This document shows, in pieces, positions 10,939 to 63,690 of a stretch of DNA of 64,000 nucleotides. The notes beneath the pieces were generated by a model, which had not been told where the DNA came from, searched no databases, and worked only from the letters and a program-made list of their open reading frames with translations. The position numbers were made by a program, and so were the translations under genes. Location: positions 740,001-804,000 of the forward strand of contig BROG01000032.1 in assembly GCA_030159075.1 (NCBI GenBank), in the 5' to 3' direction. The stretch is from Atrina japonica (lineage: Eukaryota > Mollusca > Bivalvia > Pterioida > Pinnidae). The stretch's first letter is position 1. Every line of letters begins with the position of its first letter.

Positions 10939-14953
<4,015 letters not shown>

Positions 14954-52009: not shown

Positions 52010-52340
52010 AAATCAAGAGGTGGGATCAGGTGCAGTGGAGGAGTAAGCATCCCCTGTCGACCGGTCACACCCGCCGTGAGTCCACAGTCAAATCAAAATG
52101 AGATACGTGAGGAACAAATCTTCGTCACAATTGTTACAGACGTCTCTACAACCGCCACCGAAAGGATAATTCAACATTTCACGTAGTGAAACAGATTAAT
52201 CATAAACAAGACAATTATACCAACCGTAAACTTTGCGGAACGTTGATATCAAACGCAGTTTTCGATATCCCTGTGTCAATAATATGTCAGTGAGTAATTT
52301 ACCTCTGTATATAAAATGTTTATATGTTGAACTCGGCCTG
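52010..52340 (-). pseudogene. Penelope-type reverse transcriptase copy 4, cut by the Polinton
   Basis: The minus strand gives the C-terminal region of the retroelement protein (RGKLLTD, TQGYRK) and its 3' segment (inverse of cctgtcgaccggtcacaccc). Homology to the other copies continues to cggcctg at 52340 and then stops where the Polinton begins. The missing half should lie beyond the right end of the Polinton. Confidence 0.65.
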
Positions 52341-52350
52341 AGTAGTTATA

Positions 52351-52473
52351 GGCAGCTCTCCGACGCGCCATTTGAATTTTGCCGCCAGGGGGCGCTTTTT
52401 AACGGTTTTTGATGACGTCATCAGAATGCTGGCTTCTGATTGGTCAATTCAAATGGCGCGCCGGAGAGCCGCC
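52351..52473. repeat. Terminal palindrome (28 bp arms, 67 bp loop)
   Basis: 52351-52378 (ggcagctctccgacgcgcca...) and 52446-52473 are inverted with 26 of 28 matches. Located 10 bp inside the Polinton terminus. It could form a cruciform or act in end recognition. Confidence 0.8.
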
Positions 52474-52644
52474 TGTGACGTCACAACCGGAAGTGCGTCA
52501 TACCGGAAGTGGAGGTCATACCGGAAGTGCGTCATACCGGAAGTGAGGTCATGTTGTCATGGCAATAAGGAGAAAGAGCCAATCGTTGAGCTTGGAGGCG
52601 TGTCTATGACCGGAAGTGGAAGGTTGCGGGGGCGGCCATCTTGG
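52413..52644. promoter_or_regulatory. Compact enhancer-promoter: CRE, ETS, YY1, CCAAT sites
   Basis: Two full CREs TGACGTCA (52413-52420, 52476-52483). Five ETS sites CCGGAAGT at 52487, 52503, 52521, 52537 and 52610; the first four are spaced 16, 18 and 16 bp with GCGTCATA or GAGGTCATA between them. One YY1-type GGCGGCCATCTTGG (52631). Inverted and direct CCAAT at about 52439, 52579 and 52650. Density is far above the surrounding AT-rich DNA. Direction is not certain; both pairs of left-end genes lie to the right. Confidence 0.6.
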
Positions 52645-52744
52645 TTAAGGAGCCAATGAGAGCCTTCGTTACAAGAGGTTGGGGTCACGAGAGGTCGCGA
52701 GAGGTCACGTGAGTTCCCGAGAAGTCAACGGGAAGAGAGAGAAG

Positions 52745-52865
52745 TTGGGTTTTTCCAGTTTTGAGCTGAGAGTGAATCTATTTTTAGAACCGAAACTTTG
52801 GGGTTTTTCCAGTTTTGAGCTGAGAGTGAATCTATTTTTAGAACCGAAACTTTGGGTTTTTCCAG
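52745..52865. repeat. Two tandem copies of a 57 bp unit with CTATTTTTAG
   Basis: Unit gggtttttccagttttgagc...gaatctatttttagaaccga, twice. The CTATTTTTAG core also precedes the BIR and zinc-knuckle genes (inverse strand). Confidence 0.85.
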
Positions 52866-53024
52866 GTTTGTGAAACTAGCAGTTGGTGGCGCTACCGTCG
52901 GTGAAACTAGTAGTTGGTGGCGCCACTGTCGTTGAGAGTTGTGTATCATGCGCATGCGCGAGAAGCGATAGGCCGAGCTCGATTCAAGCTTGAACTAAGA
53001 CTTGTACTAAGGCTTGTAGAGTGA

Positions 53025-53335
53025 CGAGTATGTACAAAGGGAGATCACTCTGTATAGACTTTACAGGTGAAACAAAGGGAGATTACTCTGTATAGCTTGT
53101 ATGAGTAGGACTAAAGGGAGATCACTCTGTATAGACTGTATAGGTGAAACAAAGGGAGATTACTCTGTATAGACTCTATAGGTGGAACAAAGGGAGATTA
53201 CTCTGTATAGAGACTGTAGAGATGGGGCAAAGGGAGATCACTCTGTATAGACTGTGTAGGCGAAACAAAGGGAGATTACTCTGTATAGACTATAGGGTGG
53301 AACAAAAGGGATGATGACTCTTTATGGGCTGTAGG
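53025..53335. repeat. Minisatellite with gggagatcactctgtataga
   Basis: About seven units of 38-48 bp, aacaaagggagattactctg plus tatagac. 53336-53620 continues with shorter caaagtttg/aagtgatcaagtg repeats and one more YY1-like gccatcttgg (53398). Confidence 0.85.
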
Positions 53336-53828: not shown

Positions 53829-53990
53829 ACTTATTCTCAAGTTTTTTATGTTACTATTTTTAGAATTGCCTCGTTTTGAATTTCTATCTCATAAAATTTG
53901 TTCAATCAAGTACAAGAAATAAATTACTTACTATAGACTAGACTTACCGCTACAGTATAACACAACACAAAAACTGCATAGTTTCAGTTA

Positions 53991-54031
53991 AGGTTTCTTT
54001 TCGTGTAAGTTAGGTGGCCCTTAAAAGGGCC
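53991..54031 (-). terminator. Histone-type 3' stem-loop and purine-rich element, gene a
   Basis: Minus strand: stem-loop GGCCCTTTTAAGGGCC at 54031-54016, preceded by CAAC and followed by ACC, then cgaaaagaaacct at 54003-53991. It fits the histone mRNA consensus GGYYCTTHTNARRRCCAC with a U7-target-like block about 12 nt downstream. It starts 26 nt after the stop at 54058. Confidence 0.85.
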
Positions 54032-54057
54032 GTTGGTATAATGGGTTGTTAAACCCC

Positions 54058-54292
54058 TTATAGGCAGCAGCAACAGCAGGCCCGGCAGCACACCATTTTT
54101 TCTCGTTCTCTTGCTGCTGCACGGGCCGCAGCAGCTTTACAAAATCTTTCCATTCCGGCTTTCTGGCGTTCAAAATATTCCCACTCGTCGCTGGGTGTCT
54201 TCAGGGTCTTCAGTACATAATCAGGCTTACTTGCCCAAAAGAGAGTGGTATCAATCGCAAGTTCTGAACTTTGCTTAGTTGGGCTGTGCCAT
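54058..54292 (-). pseudogene. Small left-end gene a (Cys-rich tail), probably frameshifted
   Basis: TATA box TATAAAAAG at 54351-54343 and CCAAT boxes at 54408 and 54441 precede an ATG at 54292-54290 with good context. That frame stops after five codons, while the adjacent frame is open to the TAA at 54058, so one indel is inferred. The long frame ends in an Ala/Arg-rich segment and a CCRACCCCCL tail, perhaps a lipid or metal anchor. The apparent 151 aa ORF reaching 54513 begins with TTG and overlaps the promoter, so it was not used. A histone-type stem-loop follows the stop. Function unknown. Confidence 0.5.
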
Positions 54293-54342
54293 CTTTGGTT
54301 TTGTCTTCTGGAAGGAAGCGCAGTGAAATGAGACGCGCACGG

Positions 54343-54506
54343 CTTTTTATATGAGCAGTATAGTGCACGCGACGTACTCCGTCTCGTCAACTTTGACCTC
54401 TTTGATGATTGGCCTATGTATCTTTGGCAACGTGATTCCACCAATGAAAACGTCAAGAGTGATAGACGCCTAGGAGAAATCAGTCTAAGAGTGATAAAAA
54501 TAAAAA
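54343..54506. promoter_or_regulatory. Bidirectional promoter between genes a and b
   Basis: Leftward: TATA 54351-54343, CCAAT boxes (ATTGG 54408-54412, CCAAT 54441-54445). Rightward: gataaaaataaaaa at 54492-54505 is the only TATA-like sequence. Confidence 0.5.
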
Positions 54507-54776
54507 ATGTCAAACATGGCGTATACTATGGAGTACACTATGGAACAAGAAATCGAACCTGTTCTAATCGAGCCTGTATATGATACTAGGCAGATTATTC
54601 GTGATACTAAAGATAAGTTACGAAAGATTGATCTGAACTTTCATCGGGGAAAAGAAGATGTTCGCCTGAGACGAATTGTACTTCTCAATTCTGTTTTACG
54701 GTTTGGTAGAGAAGAGAGAAAACGTAAGCAGATGGATGAGAAGTGTTTGCCGTTTAAAAAGAGATTCTGTACATGA
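54507..54776 (+). CDS. Small left-end gene b, basic protein with SERTA-like segment
   Basis: 89 aa from the first ATG; four in-frame ATGs (54507, 54516, 54528, 54540). The TATA-like stretch just upstream may favour the last. Residues 37-67 (HRGKEDVRLRRIVLLNSVLR within) resemble the SERTA motif of cell-cycle co-regulators (basic, LRR.VLL.N.LR pattern); this is a visual match only. The C-terminus is a likely nuclear signal, KRKQ...LPFKKRF. A slightly degenerate histone-type stem-loop follows the stop by 27 nt. Gene c ends in a similar LPLKKRR tail. It could be an early regulatory protein. Confidence 0.6.
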   Translation: MSNMAYTMEYTMEQEIEPVLIEPVYDTRQIIRDTKDKLRKIDLNFHRGKEDVRLRRIVLLNSVLRFGREERKRKQMDEKCLPFKKRFCT

Positions 54777-54803
54777 ATCATGGCAGATATGCCAAAAAAC
54801 AAC

Positions 54804-54843
54804 GGTCTTTTCAGGACCACTTATATCTTACGAGAAGAAACCT
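54804..54843 (+). terminator. Histone-type 3' stem-loop and purine-rich element, gene b
   Basis: GGTCTTTTCAGGACC (54804-54818), one nucleotide shorter than consensus, flanked by CAAC and AC, then acgagaagaaacctt at 54830-54844. AATAAA occurs further on (about 54867 and 54922) as a possible backup. Confidence 0.7.
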
Positions 54844-55022
54844 TAAACTGAATGTGCAGTGTATATAATAAAATGAGTTATAGGGTTTATGAGACAAGAA
54901 TATGAGTTATAGGGTTTATGACACAATAAAATGAGTAATAGGTCTATGTTTTATAGAGTAGTAGTAGTAGTAGATGTAGCATATCTCAATACAGTTTAGA
55001 TTACTTTTCTAATGAGTTGGGT

Positions 55023-55038
55023 GGCCCTGAAAAGGGCC
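55023..55038 (-). terminator. Histone-type 3' stem-loop, gene c
   Basis: Minus strand GGCCCTTTTCAGGGCC preceded by TAAC and followed by ACCCA, 13 nt after the TAG at 55052. The purine-rich block is weaker here (attagaaaag). Confidence 0.85.
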
Positions 55039-55051
55039 GTTAGTTAGGTTA

Positions 55052-55412
55052 CTAATATTGATAGTAACATCTTCTCTTTTTCAGAGGTAAACGGCGTTCT
55101 GCTTCCAGTAGATCATCTGTCTTTCTCTTGATCGTCATGATGATCGGTATTTGTTGTTGACGAAAACTAGCTCTAATCTGTTTTCTAGTAGAAACATACT
55201 GAGCTGTCAAATACTCTAAGCCCTGTCGGTACTGCCTATCGAAATCATCTCCTGACTTTCTGCGAGGTTTGCTGATGTTTCAGTTGCCTCCATCTCAGAT
55301 TCAGTTTTGTCAGTAGACTCTGATAGTAACGATTACACTTCATGGTACGCCACTTGGTCTTCTGTTGTAACAGAATAATTTTGTAAATAGCTTCTGTATA
55401 GATACTCTCCAT
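55052..55412 (-). pseudogene. Small left-end gene c, frameshifted
   Basis: ATG at 55412 opens a frame (MESIYTEAIYKIILLQ...) that ends after 55 codons. A different frame then runs open to a TAG at 55052 and ends LPLKKRRCYYQY, close to gene b's LPFKKRFCT. The 361 nt span is not a multiple of three, so at least one indel is inferred. Basic and Gln-rich; no family recognised. Confidence 0.5.
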
Positions 55413-55490
55413 TTTGGTTTTTGGTTTTTCACTAAGCGATGTTCAACAAGAAGGAGAAGAAGAAACGCTCACGCGACGTGTGACGTCACA

Positions 55491-55498
55491 CCCTGCCG
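55491..55498. promoter_or_regulatory. CRE in the divergent promoter of genes c and d
   Basis: TGACGTCA within gtgtgacgtcacacc, 35 nt before the gene d ATG and 80 nt before gene c. It is the same octamer found twice in the terminal enhancer. Confidence 0.6.
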
Positions 55499-55532
55499 AG
55501 TATGTCTCAGAGTCTATAGTCATTGTTTGATC

Positions 55533-55739
55533 ATGGCTGACTGTGTAGTAACCATGTGGGGCGAAGTACAAGACAAAGAAGAATGGCTGATATGTGCCGA
55601 TACAGTGGGAAGAAAGGTGGGCTGGTTATCGAATATCGACGAATGGATTGAGCTCGTGAAGCTTGAAAAAAGAAAAAGAGAAAGACGGCAGAGAGAAAAC
55701 GGACAAAATGCTTTTTATGCCATGGCCTATAAAGCCTAA
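55533..55739 (+). CDS. Small left-end gene d, 68 aa
   Basis: ATG with good context (gatcATGGct); an upstream in-frame TTG was discounted. Tryptophan-rich first half with LICAD at residues 19-23, reminiscent of but not equal to the LxCxE Rb-binding motif. Lys/Arg-rich helix at 44-56 (KLEKRKRERRQRE). No homologue recognised. A perfect histone-type stem-loop starts 9 nt after the stop. Confidence 0.6.
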   Translation: MADCVVTMWGEVQDKEEWLICADTVGRKVGWLSNIDEWIELVKLEKRKRERRQRENGQNAFYAMAYKA

Positions 55740-55748
55740 AACACAAAC

Positions 55749-55789
55749 GGCCCTTTTCAGGGCCACCTAACTTTTACGAAAAGAAACCT
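55749..55789 (+). terminator. Histone-type 3' stem-loop and purine-rich element, gene d
   Basis: GGCCCTTTTCAGGGCC (55749-55764), AAAC before, ACC after, then acgaaaagaaacct from 55776. The best of the four: it satisfies every position of the metazoan histone stem-loop consensus as I know it. Confidence 0.88.
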
Positions 55790-55799
55790 ATGACTGATT

Positions 55800-56540
55800 A
55801 GAGCAGTTTTAAAACACAGATCCTTTGTATACCCTTATTCTGTATCTCTTTCTCTGTATCTCACTCTAAGTGTTACACTTTTACTCTTGATCTCCTTCTG
55901 CTCATAGTTTTGTTTTTACATTAGATCACTCCTTTATGTCTACCTTGTAGATACTAGAGCAGGACTCTTAAGTGTACTCTTAGTGTACACCTTATACCCA
56001 GTAGGTTTAAACTCTAAGTGTACTCTAAACGTATACACCTTTTAGTCATAAAATACACAAACACCAGATTCAATTTTAATAAGTTTAATGCCCCGCTAAA
56101 AACTTTTTAGATAGTCGACAGAGGATTAGGGCCGTCCCTCTGTGACTATGTACAATACATAAGCATGAACTATGAGAACATTAACTATCAGAACATTAAT
56201 TATGAGAATACTGATTCACTTTCTGTGACTATGTACAAAACATAAAGCATGAACTATGAGAACATTAACTATGAGAACATTAACTTTGAGAACACTGATT
56301 CACTTTCTGTGACTATGTACAATACATAAGCATGAACTATGAGAACATTAACTTTGAAAACATTAACTTCATGTTAAAACGTTCATCACAAAAACTTTGA
56401 GTCACTTTGTCTCACTACTACGGTTGATCTTGCCCATACAGCACGGAGCAAAAGAACGTTAGCTTTTGTCCTAGATCGGTCGGTTCGGATTCCTTGACGT
56501 TGTGACACTAAACGTATTTACATGTTAACAGTACTAAAAC
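55800..56540. repeat. Intergenic region with minisatellite
   Basis: 56140-56370 contains three copies of a unit with gactatgtacaatacataag, and within it gaacattaactatga repeats. A 7 bp-stem hairpin (acagagg...cctctgt) is at about 56118-56143. No ORF. Confidence 0.7.
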
Positions 56541-56542
56541 AA

Positions 56543-57127
56543 TCACTGCTGTTCGGTTTCCACTTTCCCTTTCTTGGTGACTTTGCCTCCCTTCTTGAGC
56601 ATCAAGTTGAGTTTACGTTTGGCCCCTGTTGAAGTCTGTTCGGGACATTCATAAGCCCAATGACCTGACTGATGACATTTATAACACTGGTCCGATTGAC
56701 GAGATCGATTTTCTACTTTGTTCTCAGGCTCTACTTTTGTTGCTGTTGTTGTTGTTGTTGTTGCCGACTCGTTATTCTTAGGACATCTAGGAGACCAATG
56801 TCCAATTTCACCACAAATGAAACAAGGATGAGTCTGGGGCGTAGGCTTATATTCGTACCCCATATACGATGTTCTGACTCCTGGCTGTACTTTATCCTTC
56901 AATTCTTTCAGAGTAGTTGTAATAGTCGTGAGTTCTTCCCTCATTTTCTGTAATGTGAATAGCAAGCCATCACGTAACATTCCCTGGGTCGCATCATTTT
57001 CTTGTTTTTCTTGCAACTGGTCTAACGTTTTGAGAACTTCATCAAACTCATCGGCCCCTTCTATGTAAGGTGTAGTATTAGGTGAATAATTTGGGTACGT
57101 CTGTGACAACAAGCCTGGATAACTCAT
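56543..57127 (-). CDS. Double CCHC zinc-knuckle protein
   Basis: 194 aa from the first ATG (57127); the in-frame extension to 57169 starts with GTG. A predicted coiled coil spans about residues 27-82 (DEVLKTLDQLQEKQ, TLKELKDK). Two perfect CX2CX4HX4C knuckles follow: CFICGEIGHWSPRC (102-115) and CYKCHQSGHWAYEC (148-161), separated by a Thr-rich linker, then a basic tail. Such knuckles bind single-stranded nucleic acid in retroviral nucleocapsids and cellular CNBP-like proteins. It is not a standard Polinton core gene. TATA (57175-57180, inverse) and a CTAAAAATAG motif (57202-57211) precede it. Intact frame. Confidence 0.8.
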   Translation of the reverse strand: MSYPGLLSQTYPNYSPNTTPYIEGADEFDEVLKTLDQLQEKQENDATQGMLRDGLLFTLQKMREELTTITTTLKELKDKVQPGVRTSYMGYEYKPTPQTHPCFICGEIGHWSPRCPKNNESATTTTTTATKVEPENKVENRSRQSDQCYKCHQSGHWAYECPEQTSTGAKRKLNLMLKKGGKVTKKGKVETEQQ

Positions 57128-57280: not shown

Positions 57281-57826
57281 TTATATCAGTAATTGACTGA
57301 AAGTACAATCTTTAGACCAACGTCGATGTTCTGTAAAAGCATTATCGCTCCATTCCCAATCTTTTAAACAGATGCCACAAGAAAAACACTGAACGTGGTC
57401 ACTGTTCCCTAAATACACAAATCCTGCTCTGGCTAATTCTGTCTGTTTAGGTCCCGGTAGATATTTGGGCCAATGATCTTTAAACGTCAGGTACCTGGAT
57501 TCATACGTACAAAAATTAGGCAAGGCTAAAGGTATTCTTAATTCCTGATGAAACGATAACCCTCTGTCGGTAGCAGGTCTTAGTTTAAAAGTGGTCACAC
57601 CTTGTCTCCTTTCGGAAGGTGGAGTCCTTGTCACTTCTATCAGATTGACTCTCGGTACGCTATCCACTTCAACCCGATGAGCTCGTGGTACACTATCTAC
57701 TTCTACTCGATGAATTCGTGGTACACTATCCATCATGTCTCGGTTCGTGGGAGCACTATCCGTGACAATCTGACTAGCATCCATCGTCGATGAAAATAAA
57801 GTTTCCATACTTGATGTTCTTTCCAT
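57281..57826 (-). CDS. BIR-domain (IAP-like) protein
   Basis: 181 aa. The start at 57826 was chosen because TTATAAAAAG (57879-57870) would place the RNA start downstream of the earlier ATG at 57859. Residues 33-65 are three 11-residue repeats (DSVPRIHRVEV type). A complete BIR zinc fold spans about 109-176: RYLTF, W, LARAGFVYLG, D, then Cys147, Cys150, His167 and Cys174 (CX2C, HX6C). No RING domain, so it cannot itself be an E3 ligase; single-BIR proteins can bind caspases or inhibit apoptosis, and viruses carry them for that purpose. Frame intact although neighbouring genes are broken. Confidence 0.88.
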   Translation of the reverse strand: MERTSSMETLFSSTMDASQIVTDSAPTNRDMMDSVPRIHRVEVDSVPRAHRVEVDSVPRVNLIEVTRTPPSERRQGVTTFKLRPATDRGLSFHQELRIPLALPNFCTYESRYLTFKDHWPKYLPGPKQTELARAGFVYLGNSDHVQCFSCGICLKDWEWSDNAFTEHRRWSKDCTFSQLLI

Positions 57827-57890
57827 CGTGTCTGAGAGTGAATGGTCCCTGATGTGCATTCTCACTTCCTTTTTATAAGGTCCATAAAAT

Positions 57891-58569: not shown

Positions 58570-59604
58570 TTAAATGACACGACGAAAATGAAGTTTGGCA
58601 ATCACTTTTCCTCCTAGAAAATGAATTTTACGTCCCATGTCATCTCTCATTGTATTTCAATGGTATCAAAATACTTTTTATTTAAACCCACATAATTGTA
58701 ATGAAAAGGTTCCCAATGTTGATGATTGAGCGATTGACCCGTTTGAAAAGGGACCACACGTAATAACGGTAACGATTGTGAACCTACAATTTGACTTTCG
58801 GCAATGTTACTGTAGACATAGATACCACTCATACCAATATTTAAATCGGGTGGATACTTTGGCATGTGTGTGACATCGACCCATTTCGTCATCTCCTCAT
58901 TCATGTCAACGGCTTCAAAGCCAAGCTTATAACCTAGTAGACTTGGAAAACGTATTAAAAAGGGAACGGAATAGATGGATCGGCCTTTAAACTCAATCAT
59001 GAATCGATCTAAAGCTGAGTCATATCTGAATTTAATAGTATTTTTATGAGAGAGATCTTCTATCCCATCAATGACATATTGAAAGGCTCTAGAAAAACCA
59101 ACTTTCATCTCTTCTATTAAAGCGACAGGAGACGCATAAAACCCCGAACGAAATTTAAGTCTCCAAATACTTCCTACAAAAGCGATCCCCGATTTCGTAT
59201 CAGTTTTAGAGATGACATGATCAAATTGGGGATCATCTAACGAGACGTGTTTCTTTATCAATTCTACAGTAAAACGTTCATGTTGGCGATATTTCATTTC
59301 CTTTTTCTTAGGATACGTAGAGGGGTCCTGGGGATTTTTTAGGTGTCACGACGGATTCCAAAGGAACGTGAAGGGGAACCAGGACATCTATGTAATTCTC
59401 ATCTGATGTTATCGATTCTATTAAGTTGGGAAAGATCAATTCACTCAACGCTATATTTCCCACTCACTATCCATCATACTTAAAGCTTGAGGTAAATGAG
59501 TTTTGAATTCTGTTAAGGTATTATCGGGAAAGACTTTTTAAACTAGCATCGCTAGGTAAAGTCATGTAAAAACTACCATGATCTTTAGAATCGAGAGTCG
59601 CCAT
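58570..59604 (-). pseudogene. Polinton penton / minor-capsid-type protein, frameshifted
   Basis: ATG at 59604; near it SFYMTLPSDAS, then FPDNTLTEF and EWEIALSEL in shifted frames, a long open part at 59297-58647 (QSLPLLRVVPF, FDTIEI), and KVIAKLHFR in a last frame to the stop at 58570. This order of motifs is what I associate with the Polinton single-jelly-roll (penton-like) protein, which sits at capsid vertices. About 345 codons, the expected size. At least three indels. TATAAAAA at 59673-59666 is a fitting promoter. Confidence 0.65.
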
Positions 59605-59731: not shown

Positions 59732-62700
59732 TCAATAACCATAAGGTAAAGTACAAAAGTTTTCAATGCGATGTCTCTTATCATACACGACACGCACTTC
59801 TTTAGTCATCGCCTGTGTTTTGACTTTATGTTGTTTCGTTCGCATGATCTTATGAGGGTACGATACTATCACTTTCTTTTGTTGACCACGTAACAACTGT
59901 TTCAATGTATCTACGTTGACTGTAGAAGTGGTACGACTATCAAAAGTGATTCCTTTGACTCTACACACCGTTTTGTCCTGACGAGTCTTGTACGCATAAT
60001 TTTTAGGACCTCCCGAGACAAAGGATAAGATAGAATCCCCATCTAATTCGTCTGTCCATCCTCCTAAACTGTTTATGATAGTAGGATTCCACTGCTGTGG
60101 ATCGTGTTGATAAATGATACTGTCTGTATCAAAATATAATACACGTTCTCCCAAACGTTCTAGGGTGACATAGAGATGTAACCGTGCTAAAGACGTCGTA
60201 AAGGCTGCTAGCACTACATTGCTGAAACCATTGGGTTCATCAAAGTCATCCTTCGGTTTTGAATTCACCAGCATCATGTCAAGCTCATCATGGCCTTCGT
60301 CATTTGGAATCAGTTCTAAATGTAATATATCACGAGTATCATCTTGAAGTAACTGTTGTAATGCTTCGTAACTCTCCACATACTGTGTCTGAGGTAAATT
60401 AGTTCGTTGAGCAAATTTACCCCACAAACAGTTCAGAAACAGTTTAGCAATGGTCCGTAAGATAGGATTCTTCTCTACATCTTCTTCTCGTATGATCAGT
60501 TGTTCTCTCGTTTCAATCTCTTTGAGGTACTGACGACGATCTTCTACTGTTTGACAGGAAGCAGGAAAACCACTAGCTTGTTGCTTAATCTGGAGAAACT
60601 GATCAATATAGCTACGAAATAAAGTATTGGACTGATCAGGGAAATGCCATATTTCAAAGATACGATCGATCACATAACCTTTTTCTATAGCTTTATTCAA
60701 TTCACACGTCGTCCATGTACCTAACAAACGTCGTTCTTGATTCGTATGAGAGCATCGATAACTCATACCCAACTCCTGTTCGATTCCTTGTTGAGCACAA
60801 GTACGACATAAAGGAAAAAGTAGCTTTCCTCCTGCAAACCGATAAGGTAACACAGGATGAAACAGCTGACGAGGGGGAATAACTCGACATTGTACCAGTC
60901 CAAAATATTGATCTAGACTTTTGAAATCATGTGTAATCACGTCTGGGTGTCCAATGGGAAAAGTCCCATGTTTCAAGACAAATGGGTACAAAGAACATAC
61001 ATCCACGTAACGAATGTCTCCTTCTTCACAGAGCAAACGAGTAGCATTCGTTCGACCTCCAAATAAAGCATCTTTAGGAACTAACGGATCGGGAAACTCC
61101 TCATACGTTTTATCAATGAAATGTTGAAACTGTGGATCCGTCTTGTACCTTTGACGATAGTCATGTTCCCACAGCGGTTTCTACTTGATAGTGTTGACGC
61201 AAATACTGATCTCTCTCTAAGGTCTTTTGATACACTTTTTCATACGTCAAAGAAGGATGAAACGGGTGTTGCTCTTGCTTTAAGTTAGGAAAACACAAGG
61301 GGCATCCGTGCCAAAAACAGCCATGAAACTCGTAAATGGTGCGAGAGTCTTCATGATAACCATCCACGCGATAAGATTCTACTTTGGACTTCCCCTCCCT
61401 GACGAGCATGTCTAATCGTTTGACCAGTTTCATGTTCTTTCCAACTCAACCAGCGTAATGCTAGGGTGGAATACTGTCGTGGTGAAGGATATCCCCGCGG
61501 AGGTATGATACCAATCGTATCTTTTTGCATATGATTGCGACGATAGGCTATATTCCCCGTACTGGCAAACGTAATCGATTCAGCAAAGGGGTCCACATCG
61601 GTTAGTTTCAAACACATGCTTTGGAAATGCATGCAAGCTTGTCGCAAAATAGTCACGTCCGATTCACAGTATTCTTCTAATTCGCATTGCAAATGAAAAA
61701 TCTCACCCTTCTGAATTTGGTCTTGATACCATGCTTCAAAATCACGACGGACATCAGGTTTCATACCTTCTGGGTTGTAATACATAGCTGGGGGATATAC
61801 TCCTATGTAATCAGCATTAGCTTCTGTATTGAACAAATGCGGAAAGTAGCCTTTCTTCAGTTCAGTCAATCCAAAAGCTTTAGGTAACGAAGCTAAAGGA
61901 AATGCCAAGAAATTACATGAGTCTTTAAACCTGATGTTTCCAGCCGTCATAGACATAATCTTAGAAACCGTTCATGATCACATCAGGTTTTTCACAGGCA
62001 TGATGTACCAGATGATGTAAAATAAACTGTCCATCGTACCCTTTAAAGTTATGAGCAATAGCTATAGCTCCATCATGTAAAAGTTTCTCCCTTTGATGTA
62101 TGTCATCATACACGGTCGTTTGAAATAACCAAGTCAAAAAAAATCAGTGAGTGTCGTGGGACCTCGGAATGTAAATACGATGATCTTCCATGGTTTTAAA
62201 TTGCTCACACCAATCATTGGATGTACACTGGGGACATACACGATGAGCAATACATAGATTAGGTTTGTGTTCTCCGGTATCCTGGGTACACTCAAAATCA
62301 TAGAAAATGTAATAAGGGGGTGAAGATGATTCATCCTGAGAAGGGATCCGTTGTATAAAACAGCGATGATCTAAATCCACGATCTGTTTACAATGGCGAC
62401 ATTTTTTCTTCTTTTCTTGACAACAGTGTTGTGTGAATTGTTTCTTACTCAGCCATACTTGACAAGTGGGACATCGAGTCATTAGCTGACATGGAGTAGT
62501 GGTTGTATTACTACTATAAGGCTTCAAATGATTCTCGTAACACCGAGTCGATGTGAATGTCCCCTGACAATGTGTACATTCTATAGGTTTTATCGTGTTG
62601 TCGGGAACACAGGGCGACGGTGCAAAACAACGAAAGCAGCATTGAGGACATCGGTGATCTTCTATATGATCATAACCCACATCACAACGGTCGCAATAGT

Positions 62701-63690
62701 AATTACATTCCAAGAGTCCAGGCATAGATACGATACAATCATAATGGTGATCATCGTACAAAACGTGAATGGGGGCCCCGGATCCCACACCACTATACAG
62801 TACATTTAATGTCAATCGTTTTGTGTTGGTATTCAACTCGTAGATTTTCAAACGATAGCGGGGTAACAATGCGGCCTGAAAACGTTGCCATTCTTCAGGT
62901 CCACTCTCTTGCTGGGGATCACATCCAGTTTGTTGCATTAAGGTATGAGCTTCTCGTCGTTGAAGAGTATGTCGACTTGCATCACCATAAATCAAATTTT
63001 GCCAATAGCGTTTCCAGTTTTTGTACTTGTCTCCATCTCCAAGTCCAGGTTTCTGACAATGAAAACGACCAACTACAATAGCACGAGCTAAACAGGTCTT
63101 GTCTGTATTCTTGATCTGTATCAAACTTTGCTTTTTGTTCACAAACACTTTCTTATCAACACTGAGATGATATTTTCGTTTTCCACCCCCGCTACCTACA
63201 GGTTGTATGACATGGATTACTGACAGGGTGGTAGACCCATCTTCTATTCTAAAATTTTCATTACTCTGTTGCACTTTCTCAATTTTTTCCATGAGTAGAT
63301 CAGCATTCAGGTCTTTAGCATCTGTAAATTCTACCACACTTCACTTTTTTAACGATGGATGATGTATATTGACTCGCATCTTATCCCGATCTTCACACTG
63401 TAGTTTGTTCTTAATAGAAGTCAACATATGATCTATTACTTCTGATACTAAGTGTATGGCATCTTTAGAAAAAATGCTTAAACTTGACTTGGTTACACAT
63501 TCGAGGCCGTTTTAAACTTACGTGATTTACGCTCACTCAGAGTGTCTACTTTATAGTAATCACTATAATCGGTGAGTTGCCTATTGGCATTAAATCCCCC
63601 CCGTTGATCTCTCTGCTGAGCTTGCCTTTGACTTCTCGCCTGTTCTTGTCTTTCATTTAACAATAAATCAAAGTTTGGTAAATTAGCCAT
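59732..63690 (-). pseudogene. Protein-primed family B DNA polymerase (pPolB), frameshifted
   Basis: Replication polymerase of the element. Start ATG 63690, TATA box 63754-63747, stop TGA at 59732 overlapping an AATAAA. In order: N-terminal part (63690-63493), zinc-binding Cys/His clusters (about 62,700-62,400), Exo I FYDFECT (about 62,295), Exo II region with AHNFKGYDGQF near 62,030, Exo III YCESDV near 61,660, a VSR-like YEFHGCFWHGCP (about 61,320), Pol A DVCSLYP (about 61,000), Pol B NCLWGKF (about 60,420) and Pol C YFDTDS (about 60,125). The parts lie in different frames with breaks near 63.49, 63.34, 62.15, 61.95, 61.4 and 61.16 kb. About 1,320 codons, full-length for the family, but not translatable as is. 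Confidence 0.88.

Follow-up and report, generated by a model that had tools for sequence, protein, structure and literature searches.

The DNA analysed here, referred to as the window, is a 64-kb stretch of the Atrina japonica genome (contig BROG01000032.1, positions 740,001 to 804,000), and it contains a Polinton whose four small genes, A to D, are each followed by a hairpin resembling the one that ends replication-dependent histone mRNAs. The element was found to extend from position 52341 of the window to position 1914 of L013, the neighbouring 6 kb beside the window, with its right end beyond the window and a length of 13,574 bp. Each end starts with AGTAGTTATAGG and is bordered by a direct repeat, GGCCTG, the target-site duplication (TSD), at 52335-52340 on the left and at L013:1915-1920 on the right. 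The left terminal inverted repeat (TIR; 52341-52981, plus strand) is 90% identical over 693 columns to L013:1914-1226 in inverted orientation. A long TIR beginning AG together with a 6-bp TSD are the defining marks of Polinton/Maverick elements. On the basis of the TIR, the TSD and a type-B DNA polymerase (PolB) gene of the viral/organellar family, the element was filed as a Polinton, in agreement with a first-pass annotation made from the letters alone; like Polintons, it is also multicopy.

The four hairpins were read directly at the positions given in the first-pass annotation. They were scored with the Rfam Histone3 covariance model (RF00032; gathering score 34 bits), which it had named for checking, and three of the four were above the cut-off. 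Hairpin A (54031-54016, minus strand; GGCCCTTTTAAGGGCC) lies within a match at 53990-54036 of 40.3 bits, hairpin C (55038-55023, minus strand; GGCCCTTTTCAGGGCC) within a match at 54998-55043 of 37.9 bits, and hairpin D (55749-55764, plus strand) within a match at 55744-55789 of 39.0 bits, with E values of 2e-8 to 1.6e-7 in a scan against 4227 Rfam families. Hairpin B (54804-54818, plus strand) is 15 nt long in the window copy. Beyond A, C and D, no RF00032 match above the cut-off was found in the whole 64-kb window. A strict hairpin pattern occurred three times in the 12-kb region and in none of its 300 dinucleotide shuffles. A loose pattern gave two matches in the 52-kb flank, where RF00032 finds none, and none in the 120,501 bases of 30 PolB regions from the family. 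A fifth hairpin, E, was found just beyond the window at L013:600-615, near the right end of the element, behind a gene whose frame has decayed; hairpins A and E occupy mirror-image positions at opposite ends of the element.

All four hairpins in the window are preceded by AAC and followed by AC(C/T), essentially the AAC and AC(C) flanks described earlier, and all four are in the sense orientation relative to the upstream frame. The distance from the stop codon to the stem was measured as 26, 27, 13 and 9 nt for A, B, C and D, respectively, which bears out the statement that the hairpins follow a stop by 9-27 nt. Downstream of the hairpins there is a purine block resembling the histone downstream element, and its presence behind three of the four was also correctly described: it reads acgaaaagaaacct at A (53991-54005, minus strand) and at D (55776-55789, plus strand) and acgagaagaaacct at B (54832-54845, plus strand), and the counterpart downstream of hairpin C is tagaaaagtaatct. 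The motif AAAAGA begins exactly 14 nt past the stem at A, D and E and in L003, a distant Polinton contig described below, with the variants AGAAGA at B and AAAAGT at C. The AATAAA signal was found 16 nt past the PolB stop. This bears out what was said earlier of the polymerase gene, but gene B has AATAAA too.

That each hairpin follows a small gene was evident in the window copy for genes B (54507-54776, plus strand; 89 aa) and D (55533-55739, plus strand; 68 aa, with 62-64 aa in most other open copies), both of which are open frames. Genes A (54058-54300, minus strand; extent approximate) and C (55052-55412, minus strand; broken) have no full-length ATG-to-stop frame in the window copy and are intact in other copies. 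A scan of the window and of 28 further copies found frames of the expected length 7 times for A (69-81 aa), 9 times for B (86-89 aa), 8 times for C (116-122 aa) and 12 times for D (62-68 aa). The gap between stop and stem was 23-29 nt in 10 of 15 cases for A, 25-27 nt in 14 of 16 for B, 13 nt in 12 of 17 for C and either 16 nt (10 of 18) or 9 nt (6 of 18, the window included) for D; copies outside these clusters have decayed frames or other gaps. No Pfam family above the cut-off was found for proteins A to D (one example each), and gene B had no homologue in a set of 5.8 billion proteins. The ratio of nonsynonymous to synonymous codon changes was 0.49 for A, 1.16 for C, 1.99 for D and 2.73 for B, where the neutral value is approximately 2.5-3. 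These codon counts suggest constraint on A and C, little on D and none on B.

The same arrangement was found in other copies of the element. In the host genome (832 Mb) there were at least 121 matches to the window PolB, including a few fragments that belong to a single copy; identity was 68-100% over the longer matches. Twenty copies were taken from high-ranking PolB matches that reached or nearly reached the end of the query, the window's own being excluded, with 4.5 kb of the small-gene side for each. A total of 51 RF00032 matches above the cut-off was found in 18 of the 20 copies, no other Rfam family reached its cut-off, and all 51 matches were at the four gene ends (14 at A, 12 at B, 12 at C and 13 at D). 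When eight divergent copies were chosen, matches were present in five, eight of them above the cut-off, and the remaining three copies contain little or none of the small-gene region. Hairpin B has the full 16 nt (GGTCCTTTTCAGGACC) in 17 of the 28 copies, with U-A replacing C-G at the third pair; the 15-nt form was seen in none of them.

Across the whole host genome, 75 of 155,611 first-look RF00032 candidates were scored, and all 75 matched, 72 of them above the cut-off. For 20 of these loci a PolB match is listed no more than 12 kb away; for the other 55 none is, in a list of PolB matches that is itself incomplete. Ten of these 55 loci were fetched and all ten matched the hairpin regions of the element, seven over 125-716 nt and three over approximately 60 nt around the hairpin; typed queries for H4 and H2B, the only two histones tried, gave no tblastn match in the ten loci.

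Outside the host, PolB searches of genome contigs yielded L003 and L004, and a PolB-alignment search of viral contigs yielded L002. L003, a contig of 8.9 kb placed in a Bacteroidia metagenome-assembled genome (MAG), is a Polinton by content, with a polymerase, an integrase with a chromodomain and a TATA-binding-protein-like gene, as well as one frame for a putative capsid protein. Its PolB is approximately 37% identical to the window PolB. Near the contig end it carries an RF00032 hairpin of 35.8 bits, in the sense orientation, 28 nt past the stop codon of a C2H2 zinc-finger gene of 89 aa. This gene and the small genes of the window look unrelated, with the 3' element alone in common. The expectation that stem-loops would occur in related elements was thus borne out by 18 of the 20 host copies and by the distant L003, and not by L002 and L004. 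No relative was found among viral contigs with either the window PolB or the capsid-like protein of L003 as query.

Two hairpin patterns searched in IMG/VR gave one and eight stretches (the one being among the eight), none of the eight reached the RF00032 cut-off, and these were treated as chance; in the IMG/VR contig L001 the hairpin falls within a long coding frame that looks phage-like. In another IMG/VR contig, L010, there is a GGCTCTTTTTAGAGCC hairpin at 1892 (minus strand) followed by T-runs, below the RF00032 cut-off, which may be a terminator of another type, one that ends viral transcripts with a hairpin. The TATA-binding-protein-like gene of L003 (7189-7695, minus strand; PF00352, E 1.2e-27) would supply a virus-borne general transcription factor, which could matter for the contig's own promoters. 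The L003 integrase had 143 matches in the host genome, the best of which (L073-L076) were 42-45% identical over nearly the whole protein; these host integrases perhaps belong to more complete Polintons.

The remainder of the window copy contains a CCHC zinc-knuckle gene (56543-57127, minus strand) and a BIR-domain (inhibitor-of-apoptosis) gene (57281-57859, minus strand; PF00653, E 4e-22), neither of which has a histone hairpin; a BIR gene within a Polinton is a hint of host cell fate manipulation. A 216-aa frame (58647-59297, minus strand) is 83% identical to an unnamed protein and may resemble Polinton minor capsid (penton) proteins. The PolB gene occupies several frames at 59732-63292 (minus strand), broken in the window copy, of which two contain DNA_pol_B_2 (PF03175), the domain of protein-primed type-B polymerases; its closest relatives with a name come from oysters (51-59%). 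No integrase or capsid gene, and specifically no retrovirus-like integrase with a chromodomain, was recognised among the nine frames scanned in the window copy (the L013 frames were outside the scan), a difference from Polinton/Maverick elements from which we infer that this 13.6-kb copy is probably internally deleted. Tandem repeats of approximately 38 bp (53036-53333) and of 84 bp (56139-56369) lie beside the small-gene cluster and may act in replication or as promoters. Immediately left of the element, a stretch of 331 bp (52010-52340) recurs in the same direction at L013 2810-3140 with 94% identity, approximately 0.9 kb right of the right end, and dispersed relatives of it occur elsewhere in the window. 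In the flank, frames at 11400-14950 resemble exons of a putative opsin-type receptor, the clearest host-gene candidate seen there.

When compared with the 3' end of metazoan replication-dependent histone mRNAs (RF00032; SLBP and the U7 small nuclear ribonucleoprotein, snRNP), the element was found to be alike in the 6-bp GG...CC stem, the 4-nt U-rich loop, the AAC and ACC flanks, the downstream purine block, the short distance from the stop and the short single-frame gene. It differs in that its genes are non-histone, having no Pfam histone domain, and are located in a mobile virus-like element. The covariance-model matches, the position after stop codons, the fixed spacing of the purine block, the recurrence in 18 of 20 copies and the occurrence in a distant Polinton behind another gene support the reading of the hairpins as 3' elements of histone type, as the first-pass annotation had proposed. 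We consider it likely that the small genes end in 3' elements of the replication-dependent histone type, giving S-phase mRNAs without poly(A) by means of the host machinery. In this proposal, SLBP would bind the hairpin, U7 snRNP would read the purine block 14 nt past the stem, and the transcript would be cleaved by host SLBP, U7 snRNP and CPSF73 a few nucleotides past the hairpin; histone mRNA is cleaved 5 nt past the stem according to PMC6303110. The resulting mRNAs would carry no poly(A), and their synthesis, stability and translation would fall mainly in S phase, the time at which the element replicates; the PolB mRNA would be polyadenylated via its ordinary AATAAA signal. SLBP binding, cleavage, the absence of poly(A) and S-phase coupling are all predictions, and the earlier description of the small genes as early, with expression coupled to S phase and mRNAs lacking poly(A), is likewise one.

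The host genome encodes the SLBP domain (PF15247), for which two adjacent matches on C97 cover the domain with 53.7 and 38.6 bits and which was found in none of 14 control genomes. Several other observations weigh against the proposal. No convincing U7 gene was found when 65 of 236,992 first-look candidates were scored; a lone candidate of 26.9 bits was below the cut-off and was dismissed on sight. Searches of the host genome for H4, which gave two candidates and no match, and for PF00125, which had 12 matches, part of them in neighbouring pieces that resemble exons, identified no replication-dependent histone gene; such genes may be missing from the assembly or masked in it. Hairpin B of the window scored 20.4 bits, hairpin E, with one mismatched pair, 31.3 bits, both under the RF00032 cut-off, as were two further matches in the divergent copies. 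Among the three contigs outside the host with a related PolB, the hairpin is present in L003 and absent from L002 and from L004, a 3.6-kb PolB fragment for whose MAG a hairpin search was also negative. Furthermore, AATAAA occurs past the stem start at 63 and 121 nt for hairpin B and at 86 nt for the hairpin of L003, which leaves a poly(A) route open.

Conservation of the hairpins belongs to the same side of the balance in several respects. When up to 28 copies were aligned to the window, stems A, C and D pooled had 9 changes in 673 sites (1.3%) compared to 6.4% region-wide; three random placements were as conserved with P approximately 0.018, and stem conservation is accordingly modest. Hairpin B was left out of this test because the window's B is itself altered. 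The stem of hairpin A alone had no change in 192 sites, a result equalled by 1.1% of placements, and stems C and D taken singly were unremarkable (33% and 18% of placements, respectively); when ranked against non-coding placements only, the values were 1.8% for A, 38% for C and 23% for D. When whole 22-nt windows were taken in the first 20 copies, so that loop and flanks were counted too, 46%, 12%, 18% and 11% of windows were as conserved as A, B, C and D, respectively, the changes counted for hairpin A being all at one loop base. Among 12 distinct 22-nt hairpins, pair counts gave 95.8% paired and one double change, and covariation showed no excess over shuffles. Taken from these alignments, selective constraint on the hairpins is suggested and not proven.

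Three other explanations were considered. The hairpins could bind SLBP in the RNA without forming the 3' end, with polyadenylation further down and a role in stability, translation, export or SLBP titration. The AATAAA signals behind hairpin B and behind the L003 stem favour this, whereas at A, C, D and E neither AATAAA nor ATTAAA was found at a distance of up to 500 nt from the start of the stem. The purine block at its fixed 14-nt spacing also speaks against it, because cleavage needs the block and SLBP binding alone would not, and we regard this explanation as unlikely. It is more improbable still that a single host histone 3' end was captured once, duplicated among the genes of the element and is now functionless. 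Such a hitchhiker would account for the resemblance among the 30 nt downstream of hairpins A, B, D and E, for the mirror-image placement of A and E, and for the modest conservation and non-significant covariation. The strongest evidence against it, though from a single contig, is L003, a Polinton so divergent in PolB with the same arrangement behind an unrelated gene. Stems A and B are moreover intact in L068, a copy with 73% identity to the window over the aligned region, the stem of hairpin A is unchanged at all of its sites, and the GGTCC/GGACC pair at B is compensated in the copies with the full-length form.

The hairpin could instead act as DNA, as a protein-binding, replication or packaging site or as a strand-symmetric repeat near the termini, and the presence of several copies near the element ends in inverted orientation is what such a role would predict. 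However, each hairpin in the window and in L003 is in gene sense at 9-28 nt past a stop, the common block extends downstream to the purine element, and the flanks and loop fit the RF00032 consensus, so that a function at the DNA level appears very improbable.

Adintoviruses, animal viruses with PolB, hexon and integrase, are like the element of the window in being integrating animal elements with PolB and small genes, although the element was not classed among them. Some of them have zinc-finger genes called 'Ziftr', according to a survey (PMC11071296), to which the zinc-finger gene ahead of the L003 hairpin may be compared; in the main text of the same survey the terms 'stem-loop' and 'polyadenylation' have no occurrence. 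In the full text of open papers, a coverage that omits most subscription journals, no report of histone stem-loops or histone-type gene ends in Polintons or adintoviruses was found. It is conceivable, though we hold it only tentatively, that 3' ends formed by SLBP and U7 are an ancient strategy, general among animal Polintons and adintoviruses, in which terminal regulatory genes would give S-phase mRNAs without poly(A) and replication genes polyadenylated ones, as a built-in cell-cycle switch.

Histone mRNA is, according to PMC6303110, the only known metazoan coding mRNA with a stem-loop in place of poly(A). If the proposal is true, a multigene virus-like element with histone-type ends would break this histone-only rule and would suggest how virus-like elements could couple their expression to S phase, and its poly(A)-less transcripts would escape RNA-seq primed with oligo-dT. 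These findings suggest that the element borrows the S-phase machinery of its host for the expression of its small genes.

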